The position numbers were made by a program, and so were the translations under genes. Shown piece by piece: positions 2,466 through 36,314 of a stretch of DNA of 39,619 nucleotides. The stretch comes from Lutibacter flavus. Its GTDB lineage: Bacteria; Bacteroidota; Bacteroidia; Flavobacteriales; Flavobacteriaceae. The notes beneath the pieces were generated by a model that worked only from the letters and a program-made list of their open reading frames with translations, was not told the origin of the DNA and ran no database searches. The DNA lies in NCBI GenBank assembly GCA_945903795.1, contig CAMDPE010000005.1, forward strand, positions 1 through 39,619, read 5' to 3'. Position 1 is the stretch's first letter. Each line of letters opens with the position of its first letter.

Positions 2466-4515
2466 AGATTTTTCACAACTAAAAGTTGTCAGTCAAACCG
2501 AGAAGGAAACAAATTTTGAACATGAAAATTATGTAGCGGGAATTGTTCCTTATTTAAGAGGCCCTTATTCCACTATGTTTGTTCGCCAACCCTGGACCAT
2601 TCGACAGTACGCTGGATTCTCCACTGCCGAAGAAAGCAATGCGTTTTACCGCAGAAACTTAGCGGCAGGACAAAAAGGATTGTCGGTTGCTTTTGATCTG
2701 GCAACACATCGCGGTTATGATTCGGACCACGAACGTGTGCAGGGCGATGTTGGCAAGGCCGGTGTAGCCATTGATTCCGTGGAAGACATGAAAATGCTTT
2801 TCGACCAAATTCCGCTAGACCAAATGTCGGTTTCAATGACTATGAATGGCGCTGTTTTACCTATTTTGGCATTCTTTATTGTAGCAGCAAAAGAACAGGG
2901 TGTTGCCGAAAAACAACTGGAAGGAACTATTCAAAATGATATTTTAAAGGAATTTATGGTGCGGAACACCTATATTTACCCGCCAACGCCCTCTATGAAA
3001 ATTATTGCTGACATATTTGACTATGCCAGCAAAAATATGCCAAAATTTAATTCTATTTCCATTTCCGGCTATCATATGCAAGAAGCCGGCGCCACGCCAG
3101 AAATTGAGTTGGCTTATACTTTGGCGGATGGATTGGAATACATCAAAACCGGTATCGCAGCCGGAATGGATATTGATTCTTTTGCGCCGCGTTTGTCCTT
3201 TTTCTGGGCCATAGGAATGGATCATTTTAGTGAAATTGCAAAATTGAGAGCCGCACGTATGATTTGGGCTAAATTGGTAAAGCAATTCAACCCTAAAAAT
3301 CCAAAATCATTGGTATTGCGTACCCATTGCCAAACAAGCGGCTGGAGTTTAACGGAACAAGATCCTTTTAACAATGTTGCAAGAACCACTATTGAAGCGA
3401 TGGCTGCAGCACTGGGCGGCACGCAAAGTTTGCATACGAATGCTTTGGATGAAGCTATCGCATTGCCTACAGATTTTTCTGCACGAATTGCGCGTAACAC
3501 CCAAATTTATATTCAGGAAGAAACAAAAATTACCAAAACCGTCGATCCTTGGGCTGGCTCCGATTTTGTAGAAAAACGTACTGAAGATATGGTTAACAGC
3601 GCCTGGGAATTGTTGCAGGAAGTTGCCGAATTAGGCGGAATGACCAAAGCCATTGAACAAGGGATTCCGAAATTGCGCATTGAAGAAGCTGCCGCAAAAA
3701 AACAAGCCAGAATCGACAGTACACGCGATATTATTGTCGGCGTGAACAAATATGTTTTGGAAGAAGAGGATCCGCTGCAGATTTTAGAAGTGGACAATGA
3801 TGCCGTTCGAGAATCTCAAATTGCGCGGCTGAATGAATTAAAATCAGCAAGAAATACAGAAGAAGTTAACCTTGCGTTGCGTCATTTAACCGAATGCGCA
3901 AAAACCCAAGAAGGAAATTTGTTGGAATTGGCAATTATTGCTGCAGAAAAAAGAGCTACTTTAGGGGAGATTTCCGATGCTTTGGAAAAAGTTTACGGAA
4001 GGTATAAAGCAACCATTAAATCTATTTCCGGCGTGTACAGCAAAGAAATTAAAAACGATCCAGATTTTGAAAAAGCCAAGGAATTGGCTAATAAATTCGC
4101 TGAATTAGAAGGAAGGCGTCCAAGAATTATGATCGCAAAATTGGGACAGGACGGTCACGACCGCGGCGCAAAAGTGGTTTCCACAGGTTATGCTGATTTG
4201 GGTTTTGACGTAGATATTGGGCCGTTGTTTCAGACACCCAAAGAAGCCGTAAAACAAGCTGTTGAAAATGATGTGCACGTGTTGGGGATTTCTTCCTTGG
4301 CGGCAGGACACAAAACCTTGGTTCCCCAAGTAATTGCAGAGCTAAAAGCGTATGGCCGCGAAGATATTATGGTAATAGCCGGCGGTGTAATTCCGGCACA
4401 GGATTATCAATTTTTGTTTGATGCCGGGGTGGTTGGCGTTTTCGGACCGGGAACAAAAATATCAAAAGCCGCCATAGAAATATTAAATGTGCTGATTGAC
4501 AGTGTGGCAGAGTAA
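2455..4515 (+). CDS. mutB: methylmalonyl-CoA mutase, large (alpha) subunit
   Basis: The catalytic, adenosylcobalamin-binding subunit. The N-terminal region holds the family signature around [20 protein letters not shown] (residues about 36-55), followed by the substrate-binding TIM barrel. The C-terminal B12-binding domain (about residues 555-686) shows the lower-ligand motif DGHDRG with His568 as the expected cobalt ligand, followed by the SSLAAGH and GGVIP nucleotide-tail-binding segments. At 686 residues it is near normal length and appears intact. Start codon overlaps mutA by 11 nt. No meaB chaperone or epimerase gene is in the window, so those must be encoded elsewhere. Confidence 0.96.
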
Positions 4516-14976: not shown

Positions 14977-17900
14977 TTAATAATTGATATAAACCCATCC
15001 TTTTAATATTTTACTTCCTCCGTTTATGCTTAACACATAATAGTAAGGTGCGGCTGGTAATTTTTGTGTTTTACCTGTGGAAACACCATCCCAATAATTT
15101 TGATAATTTTTGGATTCATATACTTTATTTCCATATCGATTGTATACTTCAATACTGTTGTTTGGATAATTTTGAAGTCCGGCAATGATAAATTCATCAT
15201 TGATGCCATCTCCGTTTGGAGAGAATCCTTTAGGTGTTTCCAAACCTCCATCATCACAAATATCTCCAATACCATTGCGGTCTATATCTGCCTGATCTAA
15301 ATTAGGAGTTGTAGGACAATTGTCAATTGCATTTGATATGCCATCGCCATCCATATCTTCATTTTCACCCGAAATGCCATCGCCATTAACATCACCTGCA
15401 ACTTCACCATTGCCGATATAAGCATCCCCATTTGTGTCACCTGCAAGTTCCGTTCCTTCAATTTTGTTATCCCCATTAATATCACCTGCAATTTCGGGAG
15501 CGGTAATTATTCCATCCCCATCTGTATCACCTGCAATTTCAGGAGCGGTAATCGTTCCATTACCATCAAGATCACCAGCTATTTCAACATCGTCAATAAT
15601 TCCATTACCATTTGTGTCTCCAGCAATTCCACCTTCATCTATATTTCCATCACCATTTGTATCACCTGCTACTTCCTCATCAGCTATAATTCCATCTCCA
15701 CTGGTGTCTCCAGTAATTTCACCGTCACCAATAATTCCATCACCATCGATGTCTCCGGTAATTTCACTATCACAAATAATTCCATCCCCATTTTTATCAC
15801 CTGCAATTTCGGTAGCGGTAATTGTTCCATTACCATCAAGATCACCAGCTATTTCATCATTACCAATAATTCCGTCACCATTCGTGTCTCCAATAATTTC
15901 GCCATCACCAATAATTCCATCTCCATTTGTATCACCTGCAATTTCGGGAGCGGTAATTGTTCCATTACCATCACCATCACCTGAGATTTCACCATTACCA
16001 ATAATTCCATCCCCATTTATGTCTCCAGTAATTTCAGGAGCGGTAATTGTACCATCGCCATTCACATCACCGGCAATTTCGGGAGCGGTAATTGTTCCAT
16101 TTCCATCAAGATCACCTGCAATTTCACCGTCACCAATAATTCCATCCCCATTTCTGTCTCCTGCAATTCCACCTGCATCTATATTTCCATCACCATTTGT
16201 ATCACCTGCTACTTCCTCATCAGCTATTATTCCATCGCCACTGGTGTCTCCAGTAATTTCACCGTCACCAATAATTCCATCCCCGTTGATGTCTCCTGTA
16301 ATTTCACCGTCACCAATAATTCCATCCCCATTTGTATCACCTGCAATTTCACCATCATCTATTATTCCATCACCATTGGTGTCACCAGTAATTTCACTAT
16401 CACCAATAATTCCATCACCATTGGTGTCACCAGTAATTTCGCCATCTTCAATTTTACCATCCCCATTTGTATCACCTGCAATTTCGGGAGAGGTAATTGT
16501 TCCATCCCCATTTGTATCACCTGCAATTTCGGGAGATGTAATTTTTCCATCACCATCACCATCACCAGCTATTTCATCATCACCAATAATTCCATCCCCA
16601 TTTGTGTCTCCAGTAATTTCAGGAGCGGTAATTTTACCATCACCATTCACATCACCTGCAATTTCGGGAGCGGTAATAATTCCGTCTCTGTTCTTGTCAC
16701 CTGCAAATGCATCGATTGTAAGAATCCCATTTACAAAATCAAACGAGTAATTTTTTGATAAACCACCAGAAACTGTAATTGTATAGTCTCCTGGTAAACT
16801 TGTTGTACTTGCACTTGTTTCAGCCAATGGTAATTGTAAAAGATCTGATGCAGTTTCATTGATTACAAAACCTTCATAAGTCCATGTAAGCTCAGGATTT
16901 ATTTTACTGAACAATCTACTTTTATTTTCAGCTGTTACTTTTAAAATTGCTTTAGTTACATTCAAAACACCATTTTCAAGAATAAAAGTATAGTTTTCAG
17001 CACTGCCTCCCGATAAGGAAACAGTATATTCTCCAACGATACTTGTTGAATTGGCGAGACACGAAATTTGCGGAATGGTTATATTTTGTATTGTTTCACT
17101 TCCAATAAATCCACTATATGTTATTGTGAACTCAGGATTTTCGCTTCCATAAACTCTTGATTTACTATCGGCTGTTATTCCTAAAATTGCAGCAGTTATA
17201 TTTGCTGAACTTACTATAGGCTGAGCCATTAATTGATAGTTAGCGGCATCAGCTCCTGACAATGCATAAGCTATGGCAGTTACCGTTTTTCCTGTTTCTT
17301 TATTCTTATCAGAAAAAGTACCAGATCCGGCAATAATTGAGACGTCATCAGTTCCCTGAATTACAACAAGTGATCCTCCACTTAAAGCGGCCACTGTATT
17401 AGCATCATAAACCTTATTGGCAGCTGTAACACCTTCAATGGTAAGAGGTGCCGAAGTAATATTTGCTGAAGTTACAATTGGCTGAGCTATTAATTGATAG
17501 TTACCGGCATCAGCTCCTGACAATGCATAAGCTATGGCAGTTACCGGTTTTCCGGTTCCAATAGTTTTATTCGCAAACGAACCTGATCCGGCAATAATCG
17601 AGACATCATCACTTCCCTGAATTACAACAAGTGATCCTCCACTTAAAGCAGCAACTTTAGTGGCATCATAAACCTTATTGGCAGCTTTAACACCTACAAT
17701 CGTAAGTGGTGCTGCAGTTATATTTGCTGAAGTTACTACAGGTTGTGCGATAAGCATATAGTTGTGGGCTTCAGTTCCGGTTATCTGATAACGTGAAGCC
17801 GTTACTGATTTTACGTTTCCGATAGTCTTGTTTGCAAAAGCACCTGTTCCTAGAACGATGGTCACCACATCGCTTCCAAGCACACCAACTAGTGATCCGC

Positions 17901-20838
17901 CACTTAAAGCTGCAACTGTTGTGGCATTATAAACTTTATTTGCAGCTGTCACTGTTGAAATGGAAAGGGGAGCAGCGGTAATGTTTGCCGATAAGATTGG
18001 TTGCGTTATGGTGTAGTTACTAATGGCATCTCCTATTATTGACATAGAAGAAGTTACAATGATACCGTTTGCAACATTGAAATCGGCAAAAACACCTGCT
18101 GTATTTGTTGTAAGAGTAACATCTTCTGTTCCTATAACACCTGCCAAGGTTGCTCCTGAAATTACGGCATCAGTATTAGTATCGTAAACTTTATTGGCAG
18201 CTAATGCTCCGTTTACTGTTAATTCTTTTTTAGTGATGTCGGCCGAAAAGTTTGTTTCTGGTTGTGTAATTGTATAATTACCAGATTTACTGCCGGTTAT
18301 GGTCATTATTGGTGTAACATTGATTCCTATGTTTACATTGGCATCGTCAAAAACACCATTGGGCTCAATAATTACATCGTCTGAACCAACAATTCCAACA
18401 AGCGTTGCTTCTGAAAAAGTGGCATCAGTGGTGCTATCGTATATTTTGTTGTTGGCAACTGAACCAGTTACAGTTAATTCTTTTTGAGTAATATTTGCTG
18501 AAAGTGTTGGCTGTGTTAAGGTGTAATTACCTATTGCCTCACCGGTTATAGTCATAGTTGGGGTAACGCTGATTCCATTGGCTACAATAGGAGAAACAAA
18601 AGCCCCGGCTGTTTTAGTGGACAAAACAACATCTTCAGAACCTACTTTTCCTACCAGTGCTGCTCCTGTGATTACCGCATCGGTATTTCCATCATAAATT
18701 TTATTGCTGGCGACTGCACCTGAAACGGTCAATTCTTTTGCTGTAATATTTGCAATTGTATTTGCCGGCTGAGTGAGTGAATAATTTGCCGATTTGGTTC
18801 CGGATATTAACATACCCGGAGTAACGATAATTCCAGTGCCAATATTTGCCTCAGCAAATTGACCAAAAGCCGACAAGTTCACATTTGCAACATCAGAAGG
18901 AAAAACGCCAATTAGTGAAGCACCAGTAAAAGATGCATTGGTGTTGCTGTCATAAATTTTATTGTCGGCAACCTCACCTGTAACGGTTATTTCTTTTTGA
19001 GTAATATTGGCCGAAAGTGTTGGCTGTGTTATCGAGTAGTTCGCGATACCTGCCCCGGTAATGGTCATGGCTGGGATTACATTGATTTCTTCGGCCACAT
19101 TCGGGCTGGCAAATGTTCCTGCGATGGCAGTAGCCAAAACAACATCTTCTGAATTTAATACACCAATAAGTATTGCTTCACTAATTTCCGCATCGATTGT
19201 ACTGTCATAAATTTTATTGGACGCAAGCGCGCCAGTCACCGTTAATTCTTTAGCAGTAATGTTTGCAGAAAGCGTTGGCTGGGTAAGCGTATAATTTCCA
19301 ATGGCTGTACCACTTATGGTCATAGCCGGAATTACATTAATGCCGTTTGCCACATTCTGATTGGCAAATGTACCTGCGGTTGCTGTGGCTAAAACCACAT
19401 CGTCGGATCCTACTTTGCCAACAAGTGTGGCTCCCGTAATTACCGCATCGGTATTGATATCGTATGTTTTATTGCCGGCAACCGCATTGCTGACTGTTAA
19501 TTCTTTGGGTGTAATATTGGCTGATGCCACTATTACCGGTTGAGTTAGTGTATAGTTGGCTGCATTTGTGCCTGTTAAAGTCATGGCTGGAACAATAGCA
19601 ATATTATTAGCAACATTTTTATCGGCGAAAGTTCCAGATTGAACAAGGGTAACTACATCGCTCCCAACTATTCCAACAGGTAAAGCCCCGCTATAAGTGG
19701 AGCCGGTATTGCCATCGTACACTTTATTGTTGGCAGTTGCACCGGTAACATTTACGGTTAGTTCCTTTGGGTTTATGGTTAAGCTCCTGCTTACGCGAGG
19801 AGCCGGATAATAAGTTGCGTTTCCAGCCTGGTCGGCATAAATATTGACTGTTCCGGCTTTTACAATATGCACCGTATTACCAGAAACGGTTGCAATAGCT
19901 GAGTTACTGCTTGAAAAAGTAACTCCTAGTCCGGATGATGCCGATGCGCTGAGTGTAAAATCGGCATCGCCATAAGTTTTATCCTGCAAAGGGTTTGGGT
20001 TAAACGTGATGCTTTGGGGGAACTGGTTGGCAGTGGTTATAATTTTAGTAGAGGTGTAGCCATCGCCGACGGAATTCACACCAACCACATTAAAGTTATA
20101 ACTTGTATTTGGCGCAAGGCCATTCACGCAGACCCCCGTACTACCACCGTTATCAGTCACACCAACAACAGTACCGCCACCTGCGTTTGTTACCCAATAT
20201 TTATAGCTTGTTGGGGGTGGTTGTGTGGCATCAGAAAATCCTTGTGCCCAACTTGCACAGAATGAGTTTGAAGTAATCGAATTGGAATTCAAACTATAAG
20301 GCTGCCCTGGAGGATAGTAATTTAAATTAGCCAAAGGGGGGGTCTTCTCGAGATACCAACCATTAGGACCATTCGAAGCTCCAAACTCAATTGTACTGCT
20401 TAAGGTAAAAGAATTTTGCGCATATACTTCAACACGTATTGCGGTGCCCCAATTGGCAAATTCAGGGACATCTAATTTTGCCGTAATAAAATATGTACCA
20501 CTTTTAGTTGTAGTAAAACCTTGTGGGAAGTTGTTAACTGTAATAGACCTAATATATGCACTACCATTACTTATATCCCACCCATAACTATTTGCAGCAA
20601 AGATGAATGGGGGATATGGATATGATGTATCATTCCTATCAGTATTATATGTAAACGTGTAGAGACACCATCCACCTGCCATAGTGCTGGATTTAGTCCA
20701 TGTATAGCCATACGGAAGAACTAATTGACTGTACGCGCTAAAACTTCCTGCAAACAGAAACAACATAATCAGCCACAATTTACCGGTAGATGCTAGTTGT
20801 AGTGCAATTAAACTGAATTTTTGTAATTTTTTTGTCAT
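14977..20838 (-). CDS. giant secreted adhesin: FN3, YDG and MBG repeats, EF-hand-like loop array, T9SS C-terminal domain
   Basis: A 1953-residue surface protein. Signal peptide about 1-38 (LWLIMLFLFAGSFSAYSQ); aromatic-rich N-terminal domain to about 185; fibronectin III-like domain about 187-270; Ig-like/MBG-type domain about 273-352; ten YDG repeats of about 80 residues (NNKVYDGNT-type starts) about 357-1214; two MBG repeats (KSRVYGSENPEF) about 1215-1375; thirty tandem 15-residue calcium-loop units 1379-1828; a thrombospondin-3-like DGDGISNAIDNCP segment; and from about 1865 a gliding-motility C-terminal domain (FSPNGDGINDEF, then YNRYGNKVYES). It should be secreted by type IX secretion and displayed with its SprF-like neighbour. 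ATG 20838 was chosen because it starts the basic n-region of the signal peptide; the frame stays open 23 codons further upstream. Ligand unknown. Confidence 0.93.
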   Translation of the reverse strand: MTKKLQKFSLIALQLASTGKLWLIMLFLFAGSFSAYSQLVLPYGYTWTKSSTMAGGWCLYTFTYNTDRNDTSYPYPPFIFAANSYGWDISNGSAYIRSITVNNFPQGFTTTKSGTYFITAKLDVPEFANWGTAIRVEVYAQNSFTLSSTIEFGASNGPNGWYLEKTPPLANLNYYPPGQPYSLNSNSITSNSFCASWAQGFSDATQPPPTSYKYWVTNAGGGTVVGVTDNGGSTGVCVNGLAPNTSYNFNVVGVNSVGDGYTSTKIITTANQFPQSITFNPNPLQDKTYGDADFTLSASASSGLGVTFSSSNSAIATVSGNTVHIVKAGTVNIYADQAGNATYYPAPRVSRSLTINPKELTVNVTGATANNKVYDGNTGSTYSGALPVGIVGSDVVTLVQSGTFADKNVANNIAIVPAMTLTGTNAANYTLTQPVIVASANITPKELTVSNAVAGNKTYDINTDAVITGATLVGKVGSDDVVLATATAGTFANQNVANGINVIPAMTISGTAIGNYTLTQPTLSANITAKELTVTGALASNKIYDSTIDAEISEAILIGVLNSEDVVLATAIAGTFASPNVAEEINVIPAMTITGAGIANYSITQPTLSANITQKEITVTGEVADNKIYDSNTNASFTGASLIGVFPSDVANVNLSAFGQFAEANIGTGIIVTPGMLISGTKSANYSLTQPANTIANITAKELTVSGAVASNKIYDGNTDAVITGAALVGKVGSEDVVLSTKTAGAFVSPIVANGISVTPTMTITGEAIGNYTLTQPTLSANITQKELTVTGSVANNKIYDSTTDATFSEATLVGIVGSDDVIIEPNGVFDDANVNIGINVTPIMTITGSKSGNYTITQPETNFSADITKKELTVNGALAANKVYDTNTDAVISGATLAGVIGTEDVTLTTNTAGVFADFNVANGIIVTSSMSIIGDAISNYTITQPILSANITAAPLSISTVTAANKVYNATTVAALSGGSLVGVLGSDVVTIVLGTGAFANKTIGNVKSVTASRYQITGTEAHNYMLIAQPVVTSANITAAPLTIVGVKAANKVYDATKVAALSGGSLVVIQGSDDVSIIAGSGSFANKTIGTGKPVTAIAYALSGADAGNYQLIAQPIVTSANITSAPLTIEGVTAANKVYDANTVAALSGGSLVVIQGTDDVSIIAGSGTFSDKNKETGKTVTAIAYALSGADAANYQLMAQPIVSSANITAAILGITADSKSRVYGSENPEFTITYSGFIGSETIQNITIPQISCLANSTSIVGEYTVSLSGGSAENYTFILENGVLNVTKAILKVTAENKSRLFSKINPELTWTYEGFVINETASDLLQLPLAETSASTTSLPGDYTITVSGGLSKNYSFDFVNGILTIDAFAGDKNRDGIITAPEIAGDVNGDGKITAPEITGDTNGDGIIGDDEIAGDGDGDGKITSPEIAGDTNGDGTITSPEIAGDTNGDGKIEDGEITGDTNGDGIIGDSEITGDTNGDGIIDDGEIAGDTNGDGIIGDGEITGDINGDGIIGDGEITGDTSGDGIIADEEVAGDTNGDGNIDAGGIAGDRNGDGIIGDGEIAGDLDGNGTITAPEIAGDVNGDGTITAPEITGDINGDGIIGNGEISGDGDGNGTITAPEIAGDTNGDGIIGDGEIIGDTNGDGIIGNDEIAGDLDGNGTITATEIAGDKNGDGIICDSEITGDIDGDGIIGDGEITGDTSGDGIIADEEVAGDTNGDGNIDEGGIAGDTNGNGIIDDVEIAGDLDGNGTITAPEIAGDTDGDGIITAPEIAGDINGDNKIEGTELAGDTNGDAYIGNGEVAGDVNGDGISGENEDMDGDGISNAIDNCPTTPNLDQADIDRNGIGDICDDGGLETPKGFSPNGDGINDEFIIAGLQNYPNNSIEVYNRYGNKVYESKNYQNYWDGVSTGKTQKLPAAPYYYVLSINGGSKILKGWVYINY
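15355..16704 (-). repeat. thirty tandem 45-bp units encoding EF-hand-like loops
   Basis: Exactly 1350 bp, 30 units of 45 bp. Each codes for a 15-residue unit of the type AGDTNGDGIIGDGEI. Within it, D-x-N-x-D-G-x-I-x-x-x-E is the 12-residue EF-hand calcium loop; by my count 23 of 30 units keep all key positions (units 11, 12, 23, 24, 28, 29 and 30 deviate). Only three residues join one loop to the next, so there is no room for the flanking helices of a true EF hand or dockerin. Units 10-14 recur as 22-26 at an offset of 540 bp. Confidence 0.93.
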
Positions 20839-20924
20839 TATATTTATGTTAATTGTGGTATATAAATGGAATATTTTTTCTAATATATGGTGTAAAAATA
20901 CATACAAAAGGTATTTATAATTAA

Positions 20925-31908: not shown

Positions 31909-33150
31909 TCAATGCTGATTTAAACGAAAATCGGGATAAGCGTCCATTCCATGTTCATGGATATCCAAACCATCTTGTTCTTCTTCCTCCGACACTCTTA
32001 TTCCAAGAGTTTTCTTTAAAATAATTAATATGGTAAATGCGGAAGTCACACAAAATGCACCAATTGAAACAACGCCTATTATTTGATGGCTAAATTGTTC
32101 CCAACCTGCCAAATCACCAAAAATACCAACCGCCAACGTACCCCAAACTCCGCATATCAAATGAACTGCAATTGCACCCACAGGATCATCCAGTTTTAAT
32201 CTATCAATAAACCCAACACCTAAAACAATTAGGATTCCTGCAATACTTCCAATAACAATAGCATCGGTAACACTCATCACATCAGCTCCTGCCGTAATCC
32301 CAACCAAACCTCCAAGAACACCATTTAAAAACATGGATAAATCATATTGTTTGTATCTAAATAAAGAAACTAATAAAGCAGCCAACCCGCCAGATGCCGC
32401 AGCCAAACAGGTAGTCACCAAAACCAAAGAAGTTTTACCGGGGTCAGCCGAAAGTACCGAACCACCATTAAATCCAAACCAACCTAACCATAAAATAAAT
32501 ACACCAGTTGTTGCTAAAGGAATATTATGGCCGGGAATTGCACCAATTGAACCATCCTTTTTAAATTTTCCTATTCTGGCGCCTAAGAGCCAAACAGCCA
32601 CCAATGCAGCCCAACCACCAACAGAGTGCACCAACGTTGAGCCGGCAAAATCATAAAACCCAAGTTCATCTAACCAACCTGTTCCCCATTTCCAAGAACC
32701 GGCAATTGGGTAAATGATACCAACATAAATGATGGTAAAAATCATAAAAGAGCCTAGTTTTACGCGCTCTGCAACGGCTCCAGAAACTATTGTGGCGGCA
32801 GTTGCGGCAAACATCCCCTGAAACAGAAAATCGGTCCAATAAGTGTAGTTCCCATTTGCGTATTCAGCTGTTAAACCGTTTTCTGGCATTGTCAAGCCAA
32901 ATAAATTGAAAAAATGATCTGGCAAAACACCATATATAAATGAGCCCGGATACATTAAATTAAACCCAACCAATGCATATAACACCAAACCAATTGACAG
33001 AATAAATACATTTTTAAACAAAATATTGATGGTATTTTTTTGCCTTGTTAATCCAATTTCTAACAATGAAAAGCCTAAATGCATTAAAAAGACCAATGCA
33101 GTACAAATCATTATCCATACATTGTTTATCGTAAATAAGGTATTATCCAT
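31909..33150 (-). CDS. amt: ammonium transporter (second copy)
   Basis: An inner-membrane Amt/Mep/Rh channel for ammonium. The 413-residue protein has about eleven transmembrane helices, and both pore histidines are present: His175 in AGSTLVHSVGGW and His330 in GAIAVHLICG. The conserved C-terminal tail GLDIHEHGMDAYP, which in other Amts forms the PII contact, is intact. It lies 24 nt after its own PII gene and ends at a terminator. Clearly diverged from the other Amt of this locus (for example in the loop DHFFNLFGLTMPENGLTAEY, absent there), so the two may differ in affinity. Confidence 0.94.
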   Translation of the reverse strand: MDNTLFTINNVWIMICTALVFLMHLGFSLLEIGLTRQKNTINILFKNVFILSIGLVLYALVGFNLMYPGSFIYGVLPDHFFNLFGLTMPENGLTAEYANGNYTYWTDFLFQGMFAATAATIVSGAVAERVKLGSFMIFTIIYVGIIYPIAGSWKWGTGWLDELGFYDFAGSTLVHSVGGWAALVAVWLLGARIGKFKKDGSIGAIPGHNIPLATTGVFILWLGWFGFNGGSVLSADPGKTSLVLVTTCLAAASGGLAALLVSLFRYKQYDLSMFLNGVLGGLVGITAGADVMSVTDAIVIGSIAGILIVLGVGFIDRLKLDDPVGAIAVHLICGVWGTLAVGIFGDLAGWEQFSHQIIGVVSIGAFCVTSAFTILIILKKTLGIRVSEEEEQDGLDIHEHGMDAYPDFRLNQH

Positions 33151-33174: not shown

Positions 33175-33513
33175 TTATTTTAAAGACTCGTAGCCCGTTT
33201 CTTTTGTTCTTATTCTATAAGCTTCTTCTATATCTGAAACAAATATTTTACCGTCTCCAACAATTCCCGTAAAAGCAGTTTTTAAAATTGCATCAACTGT
33301 TCTGTCTAAAAATGGATCTGAAACCACTATTGATAAAAACCTACGTTGAATATCTGAAGTGTTATAACTAACACCTCTATATACATGTCCTTCCTTTTCA
33401 TTTCCTACACCAGTTACATCCCAATAACTAAAAAAGTTGACATCAATTTGATGCAAGGCATCTTTGACATCATCAAATTTTGATTTTCTAATAATTGCTT
33501 CAATTTTTTTCAT
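33175..33513 (-). CDS. PII nitrogen-regulatory protein (second copy)
   Basis: A 112-residue PII signal protein of the GlnB/GlnK family, trimeric, expected to bind ATP/ADP and 2-oxoglutarate and to plug the adjacent Amt. The T-loop reads VYRGVSYNTSDIQRRFLSIV, keeping Tyr51 (the residue uridylylated in enterics) but with Ser instead of Glu at position 50. The B-loop is TGIVGDGK, lacking the Lys of the classical TGKIGDGK. Start set at 33513 to match its paralogue; the frame is open 11 codons further. Identical to the paralogue at 98 of 112 positions, with mostly conservative differences. Confidence 0.93.
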   Translation of the reverse strand: MKKIEAIIRKSKFDDVKDALHQIDVNFFSYWDVTGVGNEKEGHVYRGVSYNTSDIQRRFLSIVVSDPFLDRTVDAILKTAFTGIVGDGKIFVSDIEEAYRIRTKETGYESLK

Positions 33514-33543
33514 AATAAAATGATTTTGCGTTTGATTTATGGC

Positions 33544-33575
33544 CAAAAATATATATTATATTTTACACCTCCTAA
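33544..33575 (-). promoter_or_regulatory. candidate promoter of the second PII-amt operon
   Basis: On the minus strand TATTTTTG (33551-33544) matches TAnnTTTG, 30 nt before the PII start codon. The -33 position, 20 nt upstream, reads TTAG rather than TTTG. Geometry equals that of the first operon's promoter, which makes the assignment stronger than either match alone. Confidence 0.6.
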
Positions 33576-33640
33576 TTTTTTATGGGGTGAAAGTTTCATA
33601 AAATACTTTTTTACAAGTTTAACCCTATTTTTTATATAGT
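33567..33640. promoter_or_regulatory. two degenerate ACCCCTA-N5-TAGGGGT sites
   Basis: ACCTCCTAATTTTTTATGGG (from 33567, ending GGGGT at 33588) and ACCCTATTTTTTATATAG (33622-33639). Their centres lie about 64 and 117 bp upstream of the PII start codon, about 52.5 bp apart, matching the first two sites upstream of the first operon. Confidence 0.55.
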
Positions 33641-33663
33641 AAAAATATTATTATTTAAATTAA

Positions 33664-33704
33664 TAAAAAAAAGCCTGCCCAGTTTTTGTACACTCTGGAC
33701 AGGC
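33664..33704 (-). terminator. terminator of the first PII-amt-porin operon
   Basis: Stem GCCTGCCCAG / CTGGACAGGC (33673-33682 and 33695-33704, one mismatch) followed on the minus strand by a long T-run. It lies 38 nt after the TorF-like gene and closes that operon. Its stem resembles the terminator at 31860, as if both operons arose by duplication with their terminators. Confidence 0.88.
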
Positions 33705-33741: not shown

Positions 33742-34452
33742 CTATAGAGAAAATCCAAATGTTAAAAAGATATTCTCTGAATCTGGATTTAAAGTTATCG
33801 CAGCATTAACCGGAAGACTAAATGATTCTGAAAACTTTATTTCCTTTGATGTACCTACCGTTACATTAATCAAACCAGAACCATCAGTAAAATAATAACC
33901 ATTATCATCTCCAAACACACCACCTACAGCAAAACTAAGAGGCGTTCCTCCTATTTCAGTTTCGTAACTAGCTTCAACATAGGTAGAATATGCATTGTCT
34001 CCATTTTCATCTTTAATGGCACCTCCAAAATTAGTTGCAACAAACATGCCTATTGGACCAGAATATGAAAGCATCGCCTCAAAAACGTGACCTTCATTAT
34101 ATGGAAAATAACCACCCGTTCCTTCCCCTGGAAAGAAATAATCTGTTACAGTTACTGCAAAGGCATCACTTAAAGCATAAGACATATAAAAATCAGCCTC
34201 ATTACCTTCACCTAAACCACCTAAATTATAAGCACCCCAAGCCCCAAGCGAAAATGCACCTGATGAAAATTCAGCCCAAGGTTGTGCACTTGCACTATTA
34301 CCACCTAATTGTATACCCCTCCAGATATAGCGAGATTGAACATCTAAACCTAAATCTAACTTCGATTTTGATTTTTCTTCTTCCTGTGCGTTCATGATAC
34401 TAATTGAGAGCACCGCTATTAATAATAAAACTGTTCCTTTAATTGTTTTCAT
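33742..34452 (-). CDS. TorF-like outer-membrane protein of the ammonium operon
   Basis: A 236-residue protein with a signal peptide ending near MNAQ (about 22) and a mature part of alternating strands rich in Gly and aromatic residues, ending LTFGFSL. QSRYIWRGIQLGG at about residues 39-51 is the TorF putative porin signature, shared with the glycerol-operon protein at 23269-24036. It follows amt after 57 nt and precedes a terminator. A channel for ammonium or small nitrogen compounds is suggested by context; no direct evidence of substrate. Confidence 0.75.
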   Translation of the reverse strand: MKTIKGTVLLLIAVLSISIMNAQEEEKSKSKLDLGLDVQSRYIWRGIQLGGNSASAQPWAEFSSGAFSLGAWGAYNLGGLGEGNEADFYMSYALSDAFAVTVTDYFFPGEGTGGYFPYNEGHVFEAMLSYSGPIGMFVATNFGGAIKDENGDNAYSTYVEASYETEIGGTPLSFAVGGVFGDDNGYYFTDGSGLINVTVGTSKEIKFSESFSLPVNAAITLNPDSENIFLTFGFSL

Positions 34453-34509: not shown

Positions 34510-35715
34510 TTAGTTGTAAACATTTGTTTTATGCTCATGAATATCTAAGCCATCAACTTCTTCTTCTTTGGAAACTCGTAATCCGATGGTCTTTTTCAGA
34601 ATAAACAGTACAACAAACGAAGCTCCTATTGCCCAAGCTGCTACCGAAATGACGCCTATTGCCTGTACGCCCAATTTATGAAATCCACCTCCATATAATA
34701 GTCCGCCGTCTGTAGCAAATACCCCAACCAATAATGTACCTAATGCTCCTGTTACTCCATGAACAGATACTGCCCCAACCGGATCATCAATTTTAAGTTT
34801 TTTATCAACAAATTCAATTGAAAACACAACAACTACACCAGCAATTAGACCTATCATAAAAGCGCCGAACGGACTTACTGCTGCACAACCTGCGGTGACA
34901 GCCACCAAACCAGCCAGAACACCATTTAGCGTCATAGAAATATCAGGTCTTCCGTAAATAATCCAAGTAATAAACATAGCACTTAAAGCACCAGCTGCTG
35001 CTGCAAGATTTGTAGTAATTATGATTCCGGCAACAACATTTGCATTATCTCCTGAGATTGCCAACTGCGAACCAGCATTAAACCCAAACCATCCAAACCA
35101 TAATATAAATATTCCCAAAGACCCAATGAGTAAATTATGCCCAGGAATAGCGTTTGACTTACCGTCGGTGTATTTTCCTAATCTTGGACCTACCATAAAT
35201 GCTGCTACCAATGAAGCCCATCCACCAACTGAATGTACTACTGTTGAACCAGCAAAGTCTGTAAAACCAAGTTTAGCCAGCCAGCCTCCACTTTGCCATA
35301 CCCAGTGACCTGAAATAGGGTATATAATCAAAGTCATTAAAAGAGAAAATATCAAATATGTTGTAAATTTTGTTCTTTCAGCAATAGCTCCCGATACTAT
35401 TGTTGCTGCTGTTGCAGCAAATACTGTTTGAAAAAACAAACTATGCATTTCTGCGGGATTGTCAAAAAACCATGATGGCCTGCCTATAAACGATCCAAAA
35501 ACACCCTCTGAGTCGCCATACATAAACGTATAACCAATTGCCCAAAAAGCAATACTTCCAATGCAGAAGTCCATCAAATTTTTCATTATAATATTACCTG
35601 TGTTTTTTGATCTGGTAAATCCAGTTTCAACAAGCGTAAAACCTGCTTGCATGAAAAAAACCAAAATCCCAGCAATCAAGATCCACATTAAGTCTAATAC
35701 AGTATTCGTATCCAT
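34510..35715 (-). CDS. amt: ammonium transporter (first copy)
   Basis: A 401-residue Amt-family channel with about eleven transmembrane helices. Pore histidines: His161 in AGSTVVHSVGGW and His319 in GAVSVHGVTG. The C-terminal PII-contact tail GLDIHEHKTNVYN is present. It lies 28 nt downstream of the first PII gene and 57 nt upstream of the TorF-like gene. Together they form a three-gene operon controlled from the operator array upstream of the PII gene. Confidence 0.94.
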   Translation of the reverse strand: MDTNTVLDLMWILIAGILVFFMQAGFTLVETGFTRSKNTGNIIMKNLMDFCIGSIAFWAIGYTFMYGDSEGVFGSFIGRPSWFFDNPAEMHSLFFQTVFAATAATIVSGAIAERTKFTTYLIFSLLMTLIIYPISGHWVWQSGGWLAKLGFTDFAGSTVVHSVGGWASLVAAFMVGPRLGKYTDGKSNAIPGHNLLIGSLGIFILWFGWFGFNAGSQLAISGDNANVVAGIIITTNLAAAAGALSAMFITWIIYGRPDISMTLNGVLAGLVAVTAGCAAVSPFGAFMIGLIAGVVVVFSIEFVDKKLKIDDPVGAVSVHGVTGALGTLLVGVFATDGGLLYGGGFHKLGVQAIGVISVAAWAIGASFVVLFILKKTIGLRVSKEEEVDGLDIHEHKTNVYN

Positions 35716-35743: not shown

Positions 35744-36082
35744 TTATTTTAGAGCGTCGGACCCACTTTCTTTTGTTCTTATTCTATAAACCTCTTCTAC
35801 ATTCGAAACAAATACTTTACCGTCCCCAACAGTTCCAGTAAAAGCTGTTTTTAAAATTGCATCGACTGTTCTTTCCAAAAATGGATCAGAAACTACAATG
35901 GATAAAAACCTTCGCTGAATATCGGAAGTGCTATAACTAACGCCTCGATATACGTGCCCTTCTTTTTCATTTCCAACTCCCGTCACATCCCAGTAGCTAA
36001 AAAAATTGACTTCAATTTGATGCAGGGCTTCCTTTACTTCATCAAATTTTGATTTTCTGATAATTGCTTCAATTTTCTTCAT
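35744..36082 (-). CDS. PII nitrogen-regulatory protein (first copy)
   Basis: A 112-residue GlnB/GlnK-type PII protein. T-loop VYRGVSYSTSDIQRRFLSIV keeps Tyr51; B-loop TGTVGDGK lacks the classical Lys; the C-terminal RIRTKE matches the ATP-binding RIRTGE of other PII proteins. First gene of the PII-amt-porin operon, expected to close or open the adjacent Amt according to 2-oxoglutarate and ATP/ADP. Its 98/112 identity with the second copy contrasts with the clear divergence of the two Amts, which suggests that selection or gene conversion keeps the PII pair alike and that mixed trimers may form. Confidence 0.94.
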   Translation of the reverse strand: MKKIEAIIRKSKFDEVKEALHQIEVNFFSYWDVTGVGNEKEGHVYRGVSYSTSDIQRRFLSIVVSDPFLERTVDAILKTAFTGTVGDGKVFVSNVEEVYRIRTKESGSDALK

Positions 36083-36113
36083 AATAAAGTGATTTTTTTG
36101 ATTGATTTCGAGG

Positions 36114-36145
36114 CAAAAATATATATATAAATTTATACCCCCAAA
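36114..36145 (-). promoter_or_regulatory. promoter of the first PII-amt-porin operon
   Basis: On the minus strand: TTTG at 36145-36142, a 20-nt spacer, and TATTTTTG at 36121-36114, an exact Bacteroidota -33/-7 promoter. It lies 31 nt before the PII start codon. The -33 element lies inside palindrome 1 of the operator array, so occupancy of that site should block RNA polymerase or replace its -33 contact. Confidence 0.7.
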
Positions 36146-36314
36146 TTTTATAGGGGTGGTACCGTTATTTTTATGAATATTTATATTTATACCCTATTTT
36201 TTTATGGGCTATTTAATATTATTTATTATTTAATGAGAATTATACCCCTATTTTTTAGGGGTTGGAGTTTTTAAAATAGAAGTAACTGGTTTTTTACCCC
36301 TAAAATTTTAGGGT
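36137..36314. promoter_or_regulatory. array of four phased ACCCCTA-N5-TAGGGGT palindromes
   Basis: Site 1, 36137-36157 (ACCCC...GGGGT); site 2, 36191-36209 (ACCCTATTTTTTTATGGGC); site 3, 36244-36262 (ACCCCTATTTTTTAGGGGT, perfect 7-bp arms); site 4, 36296-36314 (ACCCCTAAAATTTTAGGGT). Centres are at about 36147, 36200, 36253 and 36305, that is 53, 53 and 52 bp apart, five turns of B-DNA. All sites therefore face the same side of the helix. Probable operators for a nitrogen-responsive regulator; which protein binds is unknown. Confidence 0.75.

Follow-up and report, generated by a model that had tools for sequence, protein, structure and literature searches.

We analyzed a 39,619-nucleotide stretch of Lutibacter flavus DNA (the window) and found four evenly spaced palindromes upstream of an operon for a PII protein, an ammonium transporter and a porin-like protein, and related site pairs recurred at ammonium-assimilation genes in many members of the family. 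With a probability of roughly 85%, judged from sequence comparison, we consider these palindromes to be operators through which a single dimeric protein governs how Flavobacteriaceae take up and assimilate ammonium.

The array lies in the 403-bp intergenic region preceding the first PII gene. Site 1, the proximal palindrome, occupies 36137-36157 (centre 36147), followed by site 2 at 36191-36209 (centre 36200), site 3 at 36244-36262 (centre 36253) and site 4 at 36296-36314 (centre 36305); no strand is assigned to any of them. The centre-to-centre steps from site 1 to site 4 are thus 53, 53 and 52 bp, just as the preliminary description had reported for four helically phased palindromes at this place. 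On a ten-point scale for the half-sites ACCCC and GGGGT separated by a spacer of 8-10 bp, the four sites scored 9, 8, 10 and 9, respectively. A score of 8 was reached at two other places in the whole window, and a score of 9 nowhere outside the cluster. When the intergenic region was shuffled 5000 times with dinucleotide composition preserved, 4412 shuffles contained no site scoring 8, 563 contained one and 25 contained two, and in none of the 5000 did three sites fall in register. A chance origin of the four-site array is excluded, and the earlier statement that its regularity lies far beyond chance was borne out. The exact form first proposed for the motif, ACCCCTA-N5-TAGGGGT, did not prove general. 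It is perfect in site 3 only, and with up to three mismatches the strict pattern recovered three of the four sites, site 2 being weaker. Among 115 strong sites, the spacer between ACCCC and GGGGT ranged from 8 to 12 bp (11 bp in 56, 10 bp in 34, 9 bp in 18, 12 bp in six and 8 bp in one), lengths that are partly ambiguous owing to runs of five C or G.

The sites stand in a fixed relation to a predicted promoter on the minus strand. A -7 box, TATTTTTG, lies at 36112-36119; in Flavobacterium psychrophilum this box occupies positions -12 to -5 (PMC9723704), which would place the transcription start near 36107 and centre the four sites at about -40, -93, -146 and -198. The preliminary description had site 1 covering the -33 element of an exact Bacteroidota promoter. 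Both elements are indeed present, since a TTTG at the -33 position (36142-36145, minus strand) lies inside site 1 and 20 bp upstream of the -7 box; the TTTG itself is not conserved: of the 47 related promoters that have a -7 box, 13 carry it and 34 do not. Flavobacterium johnsoniae reportedly has no -33 motif (PMC7366714), so a missing TTTG is no proof of activation. Site 1 and the -7 box were 25-28 bp apart in the 47 promoters measured, and 26 bp apart in 30 of them, a constancy that is partly built in, as the promoter selection gave a bonus for that box.

A third conserved element, ATAAAAAT, was found between sites 1 and 2 (36167-36174, minus strand, oriented with the promoter). Scanning of 70 PII promoters yielded 25 that fitted, in 22 of which ATAAAAAT ended 8-10 bp before the proximal site; in the remaining three it ended 18-22 bp before that site, as it did in each of the 16 GlnII promoters that fitted, out of 39 scanned. 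The element thus takes two alternative positions about one helical turn apart, with none intermediate, and this one-turn jump suggests a defined protein-DNA complex. Taken together, the even spacing and the turn-phased ATAAAAAT fit a cooperative complex at the predicted operators.

Conservation at other PII genes was extensive. Across 70 related PII upstream regions we counted 104 sites, compared with 6.45 per shuffled set. These sites formed 82 pairs, of which 45 were 51-53 bp apart, 21 were 103-106 bp apart, 14 were 156-159 bp apart and two lay elsewhere, so that 80 of the 82 were separated by multiples of about 52.5 bp; the regions are mutually related and 29 of the 70 come from one genus, hence the pairs are not independent. 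Motif and spacing are preserved upstream of many related PII genes. Among 30 Lutibacter loci, our own included, site 1 scored at least 7 in 28 and site 2 in 27, sites 3 and 4 did so in 15 each, and the complete array was present in 14. Two sites represent the wider state, and the four-site array is seen in part of Lutibacter. A pair rule, under which two sites had to lie 50-56 bp from each other and a -7 box earned a bonus, selected 48 loci, comprising 29 of the 30 from Lutibacter and 19 of 41 named loci outside the genus, including Maribacter, Robiginitalea, Salegentibacter, Christiangramia and Aquimarina. In about ten loci that failed the rule, the end of a porin gene was seen by eye just upstream of PII, and the promoter may be located before the porin there. 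These counts exclude PII loci from outside the family (L047-L084), and two duplicates (L005 and L085) were dropped from the set of 70 upstream regions.

A sequence-only profile of the two proximal sites, built from 40 of the 48 selected promoters with eight left out, was searched against 119 Flavobacteriaceae genomes representing 118 genera. At E ≤ 1e-5 there were 83 genomes with a match, and at E ≤ 1e-6 there were 77, leaving 36 of the 119 with no match at E ≤ 1e-5; at E ≤ 0.01 the number rose to 108, noise included. The matched set overlaps the training genomes in part, and further overlap is possible. Among 197 genomes from across the class, a search that scored fewer candidates per genome than the family search, five were matched at E ≤ 1e-6; one was the window's own genome, and the other four matches lay at amt (two), ald and a type III glutamine synthetase gene. 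Among the matches listed (to E of about 1.5e-5), 121 of 123 distinct places were at nitrogen-assimilation genes, namely PII/amt, GlnII-type or type III glutamine synthetase, glutamate synthase and alanine dehydrogenase. The 123 places comprise L163-L192 (30), 36 of L222-L261, L419-L438 (20), L439-L474 (36) and the second PII gene of the window. Three of them, L253, L457 and L460, are porin-PII operons and were counted as nitrogen genes, and example members of the target classes were named with Pfam and NCBIfam. The targets include lone amt genes, and the glutamine synthetase genes are often divergent, with one array shared. The two exceptions were L244, at a lone porin, and L427, an unrelated place beside an aspartate-semialdehyde dehydrogenase gene. 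All 29 fetched Lutibacter matches (L193-L221) were also at nitrogen genes, though they largely repeat training genomes; over all fetched matches, the proportion was 157 of 159, or 153 of 155 distinct places. The test proposed earlier, whether amt, glnA, gltB and PII genes are preferentially preceded by such sites at a 52-53 bp spacing, thus gave a positive result, and the recurrence of the sites at ammonium-assimilation genes supports the suggestion of a nitrogen regulon in flavobacteria.

Random occurrence elsewhere was rare. As a control, 120 regulator-gene loci (389 kb) contained two sites 51-54 bp apart, each with a score of 7 or more, in only two cases, versus 23 of 40 and 13 of 20 profile-matched loci and 7 of 16 GlnII loci. 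Many of the remaining matches had a degenerate proximal site, with only a half-site, or one strong site at the cut-off of at least 7, and the distal site was often stronger than the proximal one. None of the 13 weaker matches that were fetched (10 from the profile, E 7e-4 to 0.06, and three from patterns) was at a nitrogen gene, which indicates that weak matches are mostly noise. Seventeen loci (L402-L418), 13 of them away from nitrogen genes and four at glutamine synthetase genes, were left out of the counts. A single-site pattern with a fixed 8-bp spacer was noise-dominated in the 119 genomes and was dropped. No glutamine synthetase site turned up in the window's own genome, a 94.6% complete assembly in which GlnII, the type sought, gave no match at E ≤ 1e-30, and no nitrogen genes were found at ten regions fetched from this genome.

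From these results we propose that one dimeric protein would bind each palindrome, with dimers on the same face of the helix cooperating. The core arrangement would consist of a distal palindrome at about -93, ATAAAAAT, and a proximal palindrome or half-site at about -40 beside a sigma-A type -7 box, and the same-face spacing of about 52.5 bp may bring bound dimers into contact with one another, and with RNA polymerase, over a stretch of bent or wrapped DNA. A proximal site near -40 fits an activator, and the regulator most likely activates under nitrogen limitation, a role that the targets point to. In its most specific form the model would have one previously undescribed global regulator assemble on the turn-phased ATAAAAAT and on two or more palindromes at five-turn intervals, wrapping or looping the DNA. 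It may be a member of the Lrp/AsnC family sensing glutamine or a related amino acid, and it would give Bacteroidota a nitrogen control independent of NtrC, NtcA, GlnR and AmtR; this full combination we put forward only tentatively.

The sign of control could also be the opposite. A repressor might occlude the promoter from -40, loop to the distal sites and be released when nitrogen is short, and the overlap of site 1 with the -33 position is consistent with this, as are the spaced operators, which are typical of looping repressors. However, an activator would suit the location near -40 and the frequently stronger distal site no less well, and repression is in our judgment possible but not the expected outcome.

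The location of genes gave little indication of which protein is involved. After clustering of 699 ORFs from 170 loci, no regulator gene was found widely beside the targets; the clusters contained transporter, CrcB and antiporter genes, among others. Four of the 170 loci, representing two Lutibacter places, had a BlaI/MecI-like repressor gene, and one locus had a LacI-like gene. The BlaI/MecI-like gene was seen near a type III glutamine synthetase gene in L241 (G012, 427-786) and in L261 (G008, 3218-3577). In addition, a sodium/calcium antiporter-like gene often adjoins the glutamine synthetase genes in L222-L261 and L419-L438.

First, the regulator might be a near-universal Lrp/AsnC protein, here called type Y (LDEIDHQILD...), which would form an octamer-like disc wrapped by the array. 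Lrp binds at triplets of sites with an AT-rich stretch at their centre, and gltB and ald genes are regulated by Lrp-family proteins. A query with a second Lrp/AsnC protein, type X (IDGIDKxILK...), gave at least one AsnC match in all 119 family genomes; the 24 genomes without type X had exactly one match each (E 1e-25 to 1e-33) and the others at least two, which fits the presence of type Y in every genome. Type Y was confirmed by sequence in eight loci, the small genome G094 contained only two AsnC proteins, X and Y, and the closest solved relatives were AsnC, LrpA and an archaeal Lrp protein. Nevertheless, type Y was also found in G076, G120 and G109, where the motif was undetected, and its distribution therefore does not set it apart, and none of the eight type Y genes read had a palindrome upstream. 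We therefore regard type Y as a possible though doubtful candidate.

Second, a CRP/FNR or LuxR/NarL-type activator may bind at -40 and -93, much as CRP occupies tandem sites and LuxR the lux box. Sites near -40 and at five-turn intervals are consistent with class II/III activation, and half-sites with a spacer of about 10 bp resemble the lux box in form. Against this, inspection by eye of PF13545 matches in 12 genomes revealed no CRP/FNR orthologue common to G094, G097, G169 and G134, although fragmented genomes may hide one. In G134, PF00196 (GerE) picked out a single long open frame, plus two matches under the cut-off, and a search of 12 genomes, among which fragmented ones may again hide a gene, gave no clear orthologue shared by the small genomes that carry the motif. 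An activator of either type appears unlikely.

Third, type X itself was considered. It is present in 95 of the 119 genomes, and the motif (E ≤ 1e-5) was found in 76 of those 95 versus 7 of the 24 lacking it, an association (Fisher 4.5e-6) uncorrected for phylogeny. Yet sites at glutamine synthetase, amt or PII genes occurred in G063, G068, G093, G115, G140, G147, G148 and G152, all without type X, and these eight motif-bearing genomes refute type X as the sole regulator. Upstream of the 29 type X genes read, a paired array was never found and a lone palindrome scoring 8 was present in four, in a reading that left out one type X locus (L322) and in which, for both types, some start codons were set too far upstream. 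Type X is a very improbable regulator. Autoregulation of X or Y was likewise rejected, there being no paired array upstream of the 29 X and eight Y genes. Finally, it is scarcely credible that the palindromes are RNA hairpins, terminators or mobile REP-like repeats, for although the inverted repeats are able to fold and the fold of site 3 is more stable than that of most shuffled sequences (z -2.5), the other three hairpins are weak (z -0.4, -1.0 and -1.5), no Rfam match was found at the sites, the palindromes lie upstream of the -7 box and the profile matches concentrate at nitrogen genes.

We compared the operators with known nitrogen systems. One parallel in layout is cyanobacterial NtcA, a single global nitrogen regulator with a palindrome at about -40 before amt, glnA and PII genes; the NtcA site is GTA-N8-TAC, whereas here there is an array at 52-53 bp together with ATAAAAAT, and the four small genomes share no CRP/FNR orthologue. 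NtrC and sigma-54 of Proteobacteria likewise control glnA and glnK-amtB from tandem sites, but the promoters in the window carry a sigma-A type -7 box. A search for the -24/-12 element (TGGCAC-N5-TTGCA) in the 150 bp upstream of 70 PII genes found at least four mismatches of 11 in 64 of them and two to three in six; with one shuffle per region, none of the 70 shuffles had three mismatches or fewer. In F. psychrophilum, sigma-54 promoters act chiefly in protein quality control, envelope stress and gliding (PMC9723704). GlnR/TnrA of Firmicutes and GlnR and AmtR of Actinobacteria have overlapping target genes, while the site sequence, judged by the consensus, and the phylum differ. Lrp/AsnC arrays resemble the present one in their helically phased sites, AT-rich centres and gltB and ald targets, but the half-sites here are CCC/GGG, and an assignment to this family is only a candidate one. 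In searches of the open-access literature, no flavobacterial nitrogen regulator, regulon or operator was listed. A nitrogen regulon with tandem operators is of a known kind; the operator and the spacing rule appear new, as probably does the protein.

Flavobacteria have an important part in breaking down algal material at sea. The array offers a defined operator together with its targets and the rule by which its sites are spaced, which should allow the regulator to be found, and it may serve as a marker for reading nitrogen control from genomes.

The window contains a second PII-amt set with sites of its own. On the minus strand, the gene order is PII protein 1 (35744-36082, PF00543), ammonium transporter 1 (34510-35715, PF00909) and a putative porin-like protein (33742-34452) that matched neither Pfam nor NCBIfam, then, between porin and PII protein 2, an inverted repeat followed by a T run, which was read by eye as terminator-like (33673-33704), and finally PII protein 2 (33175-33513, PF00543) and ammonium transporter 2 (31909-33150, PF00909). 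PII protein 2 has its own predicted promoter, with a TATTTTTG -7 box at 33544-33551 (minus strand), and its own site pair, given without strand: a proximal site at 33567-33588 (centre 33577.5), covered by a partial profile match at 33536-33599, and a degenerate upstream site at 33621-33640 (centre 33630.5), 53 bp away. Since the second set has its own promoter and site pair behind a terminator-like repeat (33541-33704), PII1-amt1-porin and PII2-amt2 look like separate units. Both PII proteins share the T-loop region GNEKEGHVYRGVSYSTSD, which has the same form at related loci and which, we presume, differs from the usual sequence.

Several further observations were made. The exception at L244 (G111:C15) carries a site pair 52.5 bp apart upstream of a lone porin-like gene, which by eye resembles the porin beside the PII gene of L036. 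A CCCC-N7-11-GGGG search in six Lutibacter genomes returned the PII sites together with many copies of another palindrome, CCCCTCTnnAGAGGGG, which recurs on many contigs of G000 and G021 and appears to be a dispersed repeat with no relation to the operator. In addition, a 1976-aa ORF at 14977-20907 of the window contains many repeated segments, including calcium-binding-like GDGxI repeats.
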